Positions 57,816 through 61,525 of a stretch of DNA of 64,000 nucleotides are shown piece by piece (the stretch's first letter is position 1; every line of letters begins with the position of its first letter). Where the stretch lies: the NCBI RefSeq assembly GCF_902500225.1, contig NZ_LR722654.1:1-64000 (forward strand), read 5' to 3'. The notes under the pieces are model-generated. The model did no database searches and was not told the origin of the DNA. It saw only the letters and a program-made list of their open reading frames with translations. The translations under genes were made by a program, and so were the position numbers. The DNA comes from Buttiauxella massiliensis. Its GTDB lineage: Bacteria; Pseudomonadota; Gammaproteobacteria; Enterobacterales; Enterobacteriaceae.

Positions 57816-58730
57816 TTGTTTAGTCATTTGACTTATTGTAAAATGATTGGTTCTTTTATGTTGGCTGCTATGATATTTTTTTGCAGCAGTGCTGTAGCCG
57901 ATCCTGTGCTTAATAAAATACTTAGCACGCATAGTATTACCTTGGCATGGGTGGGTAGTTCCAAGCCTTTTTCCTGGGAGGTAAATGGAAAACCGACTGG
58001 TATGGCGGTGGATATCTGCCAGGGAGTTGTCGACAGTATAAAAAAACGCTACAACACAAATCTAAATATACAATGGATAGAAGTTGCCTCAGCCGCGCGC
58101 TTTGAATATATATCTCATCATAAAGCAGATATTCTCTGCGCCATTGCCGGAAATACAGCGCAACGTAATAAATTCGTTACTTTTTCAAAGCCATGGTTTT
58201 TTACACGGACAAATTTTCTGGCTAAAAAATCTCAGCATATAAATAGCCTCGAAATGCTCTCTGGGCGAACCGTAGGGGCTATTAGTGGCGGAACATCTGC
58301 ATTATTACTCTCTGCAATGAACCAAAATATTAACTATTCGATCTCTGTTAAGCTGATGAGAAGTTTCGATGAAGGATTTAATTTACTAGAACAAGGGCAC
58401 ATCTCAGCATTTGTCACTGATGACATTATCATACATAGCAAGTTAGCTGAAATGGCGAACAGAGATGACTATCAAATGAGTGCTGAAGGATTTGGTGACG
58501 TAATACCCTATGGAATGGTGATAGCTAAAGATGCAGATGAAATAGAGCCCATCATCAATGATGAGTTAAAAAACCTGTTTATCTCAAAACGATTTGATGA
58601 GTTATATAATAAATGGTTCATGTCCCCTATTTCTCCTACTGGTGAAAACATGCGGCAACCCATGTCAAATGATCTCATCAAAGAAAAAAATAACTATCTA
58701 CTTGCACCAGAAACTCCAACTACAGACTAA
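57816..58730 (+). CDS. Orphan solute-binding protein, amino acid (SBP_bac_3) type
   Basis: A 304-residue protein with a signal peptide (cleavage near AVA-DP, ~residue 29) and a family 3 periplasmic binding domain (ITLAWVGSSKPFSWEVNGKPTGMAVDICQGVVDSI, RTVGAISGGTSA, DELYNKWF). These proteins normally hand amino acids to an ABC permease, but no permease or ATPase gene is nearby. TTG start at 57816 with GGAGG 8 nt upstream. Clearly lower GC than the backbone. The next gene starts 2 nt after its stop. A degraded second copy seems to lie at 59397-59690. Confidence 0.85.
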   Translation: MFSHLTYCKMIGSFMLAAMIFFCSSAVADPVLNKILSTHSITLAWVGSSKPFSWEVNGKPTGMAVDICQGVVDSIKKRYNTNLNIQWIEVASAARFEYISHHKADILCAIAGNTAQRNKFVTFSKPWFFTRTNFLAKKSQHINSLEMLSGRTVGAISGGTSALLLSAMNQNINYSISVKLMRSFDEGFNLLEQGHISAFVTDDIIIHSKLAEMANRDDYQMSAEGFGDVIPYGMVIAKDADEIEPIINDELKNLFISKRFDELYNKWFMSPISPTGENMRQPMSNDLIKEKNNYLLAPETPTTD

Positions 58731-58732
58731 AA

Positions 58733-59293
58733 ATGAACAGCAAAATATTAAAAGAACACCTACAAGAGTGTTTGCGCAAAGAAGTTATGATGAATGATAA
58801 ACCATTTACATGGTCAAGGGCTGTCCATAAAGCGTTTAAATGCCCTGAGAGGAGATTTAATTTTTGGTGGCGAATAGCATCGTATCTTTATAAAACCGAA
58901 AAAAACCTTAATAAAACCATTGCCAGGAAAATTAATAGAAACCTAATAAAAAAATACAATACTGAAATTCAATTACCAGCAACAATCGGACCGGGTTTGA
59001 ACGTTACGCATTTTTTATCTGTTGTGATTAATGGTTGCTCAACAATTGGTTATAATTTCAAAATCCGACAAAATACCACAATTGGCCTTGGTGGCAGCGT
59101 GGGTGAAAAGTTCAACTCGCCAACAATATCCATCGGCAACAACGTTGAAATTGGTGCTTGCTGCTGTATTCTTGGGCACAATCTACTAATCGGAAACAAT
59201 GTTACAATTGGTGCTATGTCATTTATTAATAGAGATATACCTGATAATACAGTCGTCTATACTGAAAAAAATCAAGTAATGAGATTAAAATGA
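58733..59293 (+). CDS. Serine acetyltransferase-like hexapeptide-repeat protein
   Basis: A 186-residue protein with a helical N-terminal half and a left-handed beta-helix (residues ~80-175: ATIGPGLNV, NGCSTIGYN, NTTIGLGGSVG, ISIGNNVEIGACC, LLIGNNVTIGA). The first catalytic His of CysE-type enzymes is kept (VTHFLSVVING), but where CysE has D-R-H-P this protein has FNSP, so the second His is missing. It may acetylate another substrate than serine, e.g. a sugar. Translationally coupled to the solute-binding gene and equally AT-rich: one transferred unit. Confidence 0.82.
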   Translation: MNSKILKEHLQECLRKEVMMNDKPFTWSRAVHKAFKCPERRFNFWWRIASYLYKTEKNLNKTIARKINRNLIKKYNTEIQLPATIGPGLNVTHFLSVVINGCSTIGYNFKIRQNTTIGLGGSVGEKFNSPTISIGNNVEIGACCCILGHNLLIGNNVTIGAMSFINRDIPDNTVVYTEKNQVMRLK

Positions 59294-59690: not shown

Positions 59691-59736
59691 CTCCCAGACA
59701 GGATACAGCTAAGTATTTGTATAGAAAGACAGATAA

Positions 59737-59766
59737 AAAAAGACCGAATATTAATTTCGGCCTTTA
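59737..59766 (-). terminator. Terminator at the prophage edge, SdsR-3'-end-like
   Basis: On the minus strand AAAGGCCGAA-ATTAATA-TTCGGTCTTT is followed by TTTT: a strong terminator for the cI/DUF262/HEPN transcript. Its TATTCGGTCTTTTTTT end resembles the 3' end of the sRNA SdsR (RyeB) as I remember it, which is a phage attachment site next to pphA in Salmonella; this may therefore be a prophage att site. Confidence 0.7.
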
Positions 59767-59822: not shown

Positions 59823-60494
59823 TTATTCCGCCTCGTTAGGAAGGAAATTAGCACTATAGTGGCTATTGATTGTGCTAATTATATAGTGACATAACAGCTC
59901 AACATCTGTATGTTTTTTCTTCAGCTGCTCAAGGGTAAATCTGGCCCCGATTTCGTGTGCGCATTCCCTCCCATGAGCAATTGCATTTCGATGCTCTTTA
60001 ATTTCCGCCAATAATTGAGGGAAAACACCTTCAGGCAAAGGATCACAGTCTAATCCCAAGAAAAACCACATATCTTTAATTTCCGCGATTGAAATATTCA
60101 TACCTGCGCCTGGAAAAATATTAGTATCAACTTCACAAACATTCTCACCAAATGCGTGATTTAATAAATCATACTTCTTTCGCCATATATGTTTTTTAGA
60201 GCTAGCAAGAAGTGCCTTAAATTTCGAATCTAATAATACGCTTAGCAATGCAGGTTCGTAGTGCTTTGGAGCTAAGGGTTGGGCTGCAATCAACTCAAGA
60301 AAGGTTGAAAAAGAATTAGTTACGGTAAATTCGATTGCAGCATATAACTGCACGAAAAACACACCTTTCTGCATCCTAGCTAGATCATCAGTAAATGCCC
60401 CTTGCGATTCTTCTACTGATGAAATATGGCTTAGAAGTAAAGAACATAATCTAAGCCTATCTGTAGTCCCTGACGACACTGAAGTAAAAGGCAT
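59823..60494 (-). CDS. HEPN-domain putative ribonuclease (MAE_28990/MAE_18760-like)
   Basis: A 223-residue alpha-helical protein. Residues 169-174 read RNAIAH within KEHRNAIAHGR, the R-x4-6-H motif that marks catalytically competent HEPN ribonucleases; an earlier helix (YAAIEFTVTNSF) is typical of MAE_28990/MAE_18760 HEPN proteins. Its start lies 2 nt after the DUF262 stop, and a terminator follows at 59737-59766. Such HEPN proteins are effectors of toxin-antitoxin and abortive-infection systems; here it is presumably the effector paired with DUF262. Family naming is from memory. Confidence 0.78.
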   Translation of the reverse strand: MPFTSVSSGTTDRLRLCSLLLSHISSVEESQGAFTDDLARMQKGVFFVQLYAAIEFTVTNSFSTFLELIAAQPLAPKHYEPALLSVLLDSKFKALLASSKKHIWRKKYDLLNHAFGENVCEVDTNIFPGAGMNISIAEIKDMWFFLGLDCDPLPEGVFPQLLAEIKEHRNAIAHGRECAHEIGARFTLEQLKKKHTDVELLCHYIISTINSHYSANFLPNEAE

Positions 60495-60496
60495 AG

Positions 60497-61525
60497 TTAG
60501 AACCTGTCAAAGCAATATTTAATTCTCTCAACTAATCTTTTTCTCGAGTTTGTCGCACCTGATGTTAACTGCGTTAACTCTTTATCATTAATCCACGTTG
60601 GAACAGAAGAGTTAGATACATTTTTTTTGGCAGCTATTGCATCTGCTGCACCAACGCTAACTGCTTCATATAAGTTAATTGGTGTAATTCTTCTATTACC
60701 TCTTTTAATTCCATCAGGTAATACTATGCTTAGTTGTTTGAATGTTTCTTCAAATACCGCCCTATTATTTTTGTAATCGAAACTTGCAGTAGATTTTTCC
60801 ATATAATCATTTAAAAAATCCACAACACTATGATCAAATGAATTACGATTATTCAGATATGCAAAAAATTTAAGCACCAATTCTTGCTTAGTACCATCCG
60901 TCATATTTGTATCAGTCAAATTAACGCATTTTTCAAAGTCTTTATTTGTACTAAGGTCAGATAGAAAATCGTTAAACTCGCCTCTAAATACACACCCTCT
61001 TATTTCTTGTTTAGTTAAAACCACACCACCAGTATTCAGACGTTCAAATAAGTCAAACCTAACTTTTAGGTCACTTTTATCACTTAAAGTTGTAACTTTA
61101 AGCGGTCTCAATGCAAATTTGAGCTGAATCGTACTTGGGATTTGTCCGTGAGTGCACCCATTAAAATCAGTTAATGACTCTAGACCAGTCAATACCAACG
61201 GCGACTCAAACTTGAATTTAGCAAGTTGATCATCATTACCAATAAAATGTATTAAGGTACTAAGTCTCTGCACACCATCGATCAACTCCCATGTGCCATC
61301 TTTGTTAGCTGCCATAAATAATGATGGAACAGGAATCCCAAGGAATACAGACTCAACAAATCTAGATTGATTTTCAGCAGGCCATCTAAATTGCCGCTGA
61401 TACTCAGGTGCTACATTAATAGTGCCATCACTAGCCATAGCAACCAATTCTTTTACGGAGAAATCAAAGGTATCAAAATCTACTTTTCTTCTTTCTTTGT
61501 CTAACTGCTCTGCATAATTTTTCAT
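60497..61525 (-). CDS. DUF262 (ParB/GmrS N-terminal-like) protein
   Basis: A 342-residue protein with the DUF262 signatures: YQRQFRWP (42-49), IDGVQRLSTL (82-91, the DGQQR-type motif that serves NTP hydrolysis in GmrSD and SspE proteins) and LFERLNTGGVVLTKQEIR (159-176). The DUF1524 HNH nuclease half of GmrSD enzymes is absent, so the nuclease role probably falls to the HEPN partner. GGAGG ribosome binding site; 38 bp after cI on the same strand, so likely expressed from the lysogenic promoter. Prophage defence gene by inference. Confidence 0.85.
   Translation of the reverse strand: MKNYAEQLDKERRKVDFDTFDFSVKELVAMASDGTINVAPEYQRQFRWPAENQSRFVESVFLGIPVPSLFMAANKDGTWELIDGVQRLSTLIHFIGNDDQLAKFKFESPLVLTGLESLTDFNGCTHGQIPSTIQLKFALRPLKVTTLSDKSDLKVRFDLFERLNTGGVVLTKQEIRGCVFRGEFNDFLSDLSTNKDFEKCVNLTDTNMTDGTKQELVLKFFAYLNNRNSFDHSVVDFLNDYMEKSTASFDYKNNRAVFEETFKQLSIVLPDGIKRGNRRITPINLYEAVSVGAADAIAAKKNVSNSSVPTWINDKELTQLTSGATNSRKRLVERIKYCFDRF

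Follow-up and report, generated by a model that had tools for sequence, protein, structure and literature searches.

A DUF262–HEPN gene pair behind cI in a 186-like Buttiauxella prophage, a candidate anti-phage system related to PD-T4-2

The window analyzed here, a stretch of 64,000 nucleotides from Buttiauxella massiliensis, contains one end of a 186-like prophage. An earlier note on this DNA had described two minus-strand genes 2 nt apart, lying directly downstream of cI in the integrase slot of a 186-type phage and closed by a terminator. The coordinates in Table 1 confirm this arrangement. The first gene of the pair encodes a DUF262 protein and the second a HEPN protein. The gene for a cI-type repressor lies upstream, at a distance of 38 nt from the DUF262 gene. 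The ATG of the DUF262 gene is preceded by GGAGG, and a scan of the 38-nt gap gave no promoter-like match. The DUF262 and HEPN genes are therefore probably transcribed together with cI, which is presumed to be the first gene of a lysogenic operon that includes the pair. The GC content of the pair is low, at 0.35 and 0.39 where most of the prophage has 0.53; this is not a clear sign of acquisition because cI also stands at 0.39.

Table 1. Features of the gene pair and of the prophage that carries it. Coordinates without a prefix are window positions.
Feature	Coordinates	Strand	Remarks
attL core, 18 bp	59733-59750		repeated as attR at C27:93063-93080
Terminator behind the HEPN gene	59765-59739	-	phage-side 5' arm, with the att core as 3' arm and T-run
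HEPN protein gene, 223 aa	60494-59823	-	predicted RNase effector; E55, R169, H174
DUF262 (GmrSD_N, ParB/Srx-like fold) protein gene, 342 aa	61525-60497	-	predicted sensor/switch
cI-type phage repressor gene	62409-61564	-	Phage_CI_repr 9.6e-48, Phage_CI_C 4.9e-18 (Pfam)
Septu pair, PtuA 431 aa (4.8e-155) and PtuB 220 aa (3.5e-74)	C27:67470-69420 = L014:3470-5420		Septu-type pair, outside the window
Integrase of the 186-like prophage	C27:91935-92972	+	beside attR, at the far end from cI

The prophage extends from C27:59733 to 93080 and is bounded by the two copies of the 18-bp core. In the SdsR/RyeB terminator this core forms the 3' arm with the T-run, at the 3' end of SdsR/RyeB, and the attR side keeps full copies of SdsR and RyeA (Rfam, 109 and 150 bits). 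Downstream of the pair we found one terminator-like site. The scan alone is no evidence for a terminator because shuffles of the 3.5-kb region gave 2.1 such sites on average. A 103-nt stretch around the site folded better than all 200 of its shuffles (z -4.2), in agreement with the closing terminator that had been claimed.

Phage 186 has its int gene just downstream of cI on the same strand, with attP beyond; in SI22 it is also on the strand of cI, one small gene away. The integrase of the present prophage, which is 58.5% identical to that of SI22 and up to 59.0% identical to that of a 186-like phage, is found at the opposite end of the element. On the circular phage it would thus lie across attP and be reversed relative to 186 and SI22. 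Such a position could result if the att-int segment had been inverted. The usual place of int behind cI is occupied by the DUF262–HEPN pair, so the description of an integrase slot was accurate.

The DUF262 protein matched GmrSD_N (PF03235) over residues 26-176 (1e-27), and no other Pfam family exceeded its cut-off. Three further Pfam matches, with E values of 0.09-0.17, were far under their own cut-offs; DUF1524 and HNH were absent even among these, and the neighboring gene encodes the HEPN protein. The view that the protein has DUF262 motifs and lacks a DUF1524/HNH nuclease domain was thus borne out. The motifs are DGVQR (residues 83-87) and FERLNTGG (residues 160-167). In an alignment of the window protein with 77 of 105 non-redundant relatives, residues D83, G84, Q86, R87, F160, R162, L163, N164, E174, and R176 were invariant in all 78 rows. 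Among PADLOC models, NsnA scored better (1.2e-62) than PD-T4-2_A (PDLC04027, residues 23-313, 5.6e-49). The AF2 model (pLDDT 91, pTM 0.77) has a helical C-terminal half. A Foldseek search of the PDB with this model returned nothing at E 0.001 or better; the best match was BrxU (7p9k, E 1.6e-3, probability 0.98, with a low TM-score of 0.26), followed by ParB domains and SspE, also at low TM-scores. The profile of the family matched solved DUF262 proteins, the best at 1e-6, with SspE at 0.005 and BrxU at 0.034.

The HEPN protein exceeded the Pfam cut-offs of both HEPN_RiboL-PSP (PF18735, 4.2e-12, 46.8 bits against a cut-off of 28.4) and HEPN_MAE_28990 (PF18737, 2.7e-8, 34.7 bits against 26.8), while no PADLOC model matched it at E up to 1. 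The active-site motif R169-N-x3-H174 that had been read from the sequence is well conserved. A lone R-x4-H motif is frequent by chance, and the weight of the predicted HEPN motif comes from its conservation in 116 distinct homologues. In an alignment of these sequences, the window protein included, E55 was present in 116 of 116, R169 in 115, and H174 in 116. The sole sequence without R169 is the HEPN partner in a viral contig (L116:7031-7687), which has an apparent frame-shift before the active-site motif and whose aligned histidine is there by chance. This sequence, along with others, was left out of a second alignment of the window protein and 82 of 105 non-redundant partners; in these 83 rows E55, R169, H174, and G175 were invariant. 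A set of 18 highly divergent partners left M1, R169, and H174 as the only invariant positions, with E55 nearly so.

When the 83-row profile was compared with solved structures, only 8y7f fell below E 0.01 (E 1.1e-3), aligned at RN-x2-AHG; with the 18-row profile the E value for 8y7f was 1.1e-4. The entry is titled merely “CRISPR-associated protein”. CRISPR proteins of this sort generally bear HEPN RNase domains, as 8y7f may. The AF2 model of the HEPN protein is all-helical (pLDDT 95, pTM 0.90); E55 is located in the helix 33-70, and R169-H174 where the helix 159-173 ends. By Foldseek the model had no PDB match within E 0.001, and the HEPN protein 2hsb appeared at rank 7 (E 1.1).

To the extent that linkage can be judged from related loci, in which row counts include some duplicate records, the two genes behave as a unit. 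Here and in the tree described below, a partner was labeled HEPN if it matched an iterated profile built from the window protein at E up to 0.01, and L116 was counted as HEPN. Of 69 DUF262 rows scoring above 300 bits, 68 were directly followed by a HEPN gene, with gaps of -56 to +14 nt (median -1 nt); 67 of the 69 rows, with 66 distinct DUF262 sequences, were rechecked as pairs. At 100-300 bits (84 rows), the downstream gene was HEPN in 67, an R-x4-H partner in five, and another gene in two, and ten rows had no qualifying downstream ORF. At 50-100 bits (13 rows), ten had a partner of 348-379 aa, two an R-x4-H partner, and one a HEPN partner. Distances between the DUF262 proteins and between their HEPN partners correlated over 63 pairs (r = 0.87), a value reached in none of 2000 permutations. 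Among the 11 nearest relatives, the DUF262 protein was 64-68% identical and the HEPN protein 28-40%.

Relatives of the pair are widely distributed. Among 394 genomes from the order, 37 carried a DUF262 protein similar to PD-T4-2_A at E 1e-20 or better, with 40 matches; loci were extracted for 30 of these, one of which is the window itself. With each species represented by one genome, a scan yielded 53 loci, 51 of them with relatives that were 46-68% identical over nearly the full length, and these came from Pseudomonadota, Bacillota, Bacteroidota, Actinomycetota, Chloroflexota, and other phyla. In viral contigs, one query found four loci and another gave 90, of which the best 80 were taken; the four were common to both. 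With the HEPN protein alone, the viral-contig scan found no relative and tblastn against a phage collection gave none at 1e-5. Megablast against E. coli genomes returned no match.

The earlier note had proposed a survey of the neighbors of homologues for defence islands and prophages. The window pair does sit in a prophage together with a Septu pair. There is, however, no strong defence-island signal beside the chromosomal relatives. This survey took up to three ORFs of 150-700 aa per locus and scanned 117 of the 136 proteins listed; it found AAA_21 five times, N6_Mtase three times, and integrase twice, and the remaining families among the 25 shown, out of 149, belonged largely to ordinary metabolism.

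The closest characterized parallel is PD-T4-2, which a review table files under both DUF262 and the PF18735 HEPN family. According to Vassallo et al. (2022), PD-T4-2 was selected against T4 in E. coli, T4 formed plaques far more readily once it was deleted from its native strain ECOR65, and it also works in K-12. Like the window pair, it consists of two adjacent genes, DUF262 and then HEPN. The DUF262 proteins are homologous, as the PD-T4-2_A match indicates, and the window partner matches the same HEPN family. The statement in the earlier note that this pairing was not known as characterized is therefore incorrect, since PD-T4-2 has the same pairing and defends against T4; only the lineage found here is uncharacterized, and we found no functional study of its DUF262–HEPN group in the open-access literature searched.

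On the other hand, several observations set the window pair apart from PD-T4-2 proper. Its HEPN protein is 223 aa long, compared to 165-169 aa for the PD-T4-2 partner, and is missed by the PD-T4-2_B model, while its DUF262 protein is 23-28% identical to three PD-T4-2 DUF262 proteins. The PD-T4-2_B model matched in three of 398 genomes of the phylum and in none of 198 genomes of the family. In those three loci a DUF262 gene of 362-377 aa precedes a gene whose product has 165-169 aa and contains R-x4-H. The model was also compared with nine further HEPN partners, one of which gave a marginal match (L019, 0.019). The HEPN partners in phages P2_4B2 and Mcat24 did not match it, nor did those of L050 and L061 at 0.001. 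Profile comparison of the window-type HEPN proteins with the three true PD-T4-2_B proteins was not significant (hhalign probability 2.8% and 1.0%).

A quick tree of 67 chosen DUF262 rows, rooted at the midpoint and with SH-aLRT as its only support, gave the same separation. The window fell in a group of 39 rows, all paired with HEPN (support 96) and with members in five phyla. The other 28 rows included three PD-T4-2 rows (100), ten with long partners presumed to be AAA proteins (99), and nine further HEPN-paired rows. The AAA label reflects a partner length of 330-400 aa, and one of the ten (L042) was domain-scanned. With the PD-T4-2_B model failing and the tree separating the two, we rejected PD-T4-2 proper. 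On these sequence grounds the window pair is filed as a PD-T4-2-like variant, with the same architecture, a homologous first subunit, and a separate lineage, apparently a widespread, uncharacterized branch beside PD-T4-2.

Other known systems resemble the pair in one of its halves. NsnA and NsnB are presumably the components of Menshen, and the DUF262 subunit scored best with NsnA. In L042, the long partner that was scanned is an NsnB-type protein by PADLOC and an AAA_15 ATPase, and it adjoins the DUF262 gene; in the window this place is taken by HEPN, followed by attL. Menshen was rejected for the window pair because it has no NsnB-type neighbor. GmrSD, BrxU, and SspE share the DUF262 N-terminal domain and its ParB/Srx-like fold; the window protein, unlike them, has no fused DUF1524/HNH nuclease, and the effector is a separate HEPN protein. 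For the HEPN half, a computational survey by Anantharaman et al. (2013) places the RiboL-PSP and MAE_28990 families in operons with ParB-type genes. The Tha protein of S. aureus is also a prophage-encoded HEPN RNase defence (in the window such activity is predicted) and needs control at induction. In contrast to the window pair, Tha is one protein that is activated by a phage tail protein and held by an inhibitor from an overlapping antisense gene, and no DUF262 subunit is mentioned in the description of Tha used here.

These comparisons favor a role in defence, because the domain pairing is that of PD-T4-2, the two genes are linked, their key residues are conserved, and the prophage carries Septu and related loci carry other cargo. 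The Septu pair, which lies between a replication gene and a portal gene as read from translations, means that this prophage would carry two defence loci, and its position is the one that Vassallo et al. described as a P2 hotspot; 12 of the 21 systems in that study were in intact prophages. The earlier note had proposed a two-component defence module made in the lysogen, along with its claim of novelty. The claim of novelty failed, as described above; homology and context give good support to a module of a DUF262 sensor and a HEPN effector that a prophage carries and that is probably produced in the lysogen. We consider it likely that the two genes form an anti-phage system of the same kind as PD-T4-2, carried by the prophage and built of two components, in which sensing of infection by the DUF262 protein is relayed to a HEPN RNase, and that it probably protects the cell from other viruses.

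How such a system might operate can be outlined from its relatives; abortive infection, the trigger, NTP use, and RNase activity are all features that we infer. The DUF262 protein would sense some mark of infection with a second phage, with phage DNA or a DNA state altered by the phage as the likeliest cue, since the related GmrS, BrxU, and SspE respond to DNA modification (according to a review). An NTP-driven switch in this protein would then activate the HEPN RNase, and cleavage of RNA would halt either the infected cell or the phage. From its place behind cI, the pair would be expressed in the lysogen and less so after the lytic switch, and the prophage would thereby escape its own defence. 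In phage 186, the lysogenic promoter pL is annotated as repressed by Apl; if this also applies here, induction would shut the pair off.

One alternative, which we regard as unlikely, is that the HEPN protein is a toxin and the DUF262 protein its antitoxin, so that the pair would stabilize the prophage and phage defence would be absent or secondary. A two-gene unit with tight or overlapping junctions would suit such a module, a survey of the HEPN superfamily describes widespread toxin domains that are mostly RNases, and four of the systems of Vassallo et al. have a toxin-like component. However, the DUF262 pocket residues are kept in all 78 rows, which is more than a plain antitoxin needs, and DUF262 is the better conserved of the two subunits. 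The related DUF262 protein in L042 also adjoins an NsnB-type AAA ATPase instead of HEPN, and this exchange fits a sensor better.

Another possibility, to which we give slightly less credence, is direct immunity akin to type IV restriction, where the DUF262 protein would recognize modified phage DNA and the HEPN protein would act on DNA or phage RNA with the host unharmed. The homology to GmrSD, BrxU, and SspE and the selection of PD-T4-2 against T4 are consistent with this, although the DUF1524/HNH domain is absent and HEPN proteins are mostly described as RNases; by sequence alone it looks the same as the reading preferred here. A function in lysogeny or phage development such as regulation of integration, suggested by the position of the pair between cI and attL at the place of int in phage 186, is very improbable given that close relatives also occur in genomes of Bacillota, Bacteroidota, Actinomycetota, and Chloroflexota and that a cI locus of the same genus with the same 18-bp core (L188) has cI and a 133-aa ORF without the pair.

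A wider picture may be drawn, which we put forward tentatively and with somewhat less than even confidence. The window pair may represent a second, much wider DUF262–HEPN family that is distinct from PD-T4-2 in its effector and probably in its trigger. One line of DUF262 sensors may have been combined with varied effectors, HEPN here and an AAA ATPase in Menshen-type loci. The slot between cI and attP, freed by the move of int across attP, may serve as a cargo site on the repressor transcript, with defence on in the lysogen and off at induction. As the PD-T4-2_B model misses the HEPN partner, a tool that needs both genes would miss a module present in at least five phyla. The DUF262 line shared with Menshen-type loci would allow a constant sensor and trigger to be tested with a changed effector, and a cI-linked slot would offer a simple explanation of how an induced prophage is spared by the defence it carries.

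The cI loci related to this one within the family illustrate the variety of what lies behind cI. We made 30 such loci, one being the window, each reaching 1.5 kb past cI. An int gene was behind cI in six of the other 29, and cargo was Pfam-scanned in eight. In these eight we observed an HNH nuclease twice, an OLD/GajA-like ATPase once (cut by the end of its locus), and a RES-domain protein once (L187:3-809, L207:3-845, L189:1-1404, and L201:910-1257). In a further locus, L203, most of the core is present and the cargo is different. Beyond the core, L188 has an ORF that is 68% identical over 175 residues to the window ORF at 57816-58730. Gene names in the prophage loci L014 and L015 (replication gene, portal, late control D, tail fibre) and those of host genes beside the prophage were read from translations, PtuA, PtuB, and the integrase excepted. 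Just outside attL, the product of 58733-59293, which we take to be a hexapeptide-repeat transferase from its appearance, is 56% identical over 179 columns to that of L015:4336-4896 in the late-gene region of the prophage.
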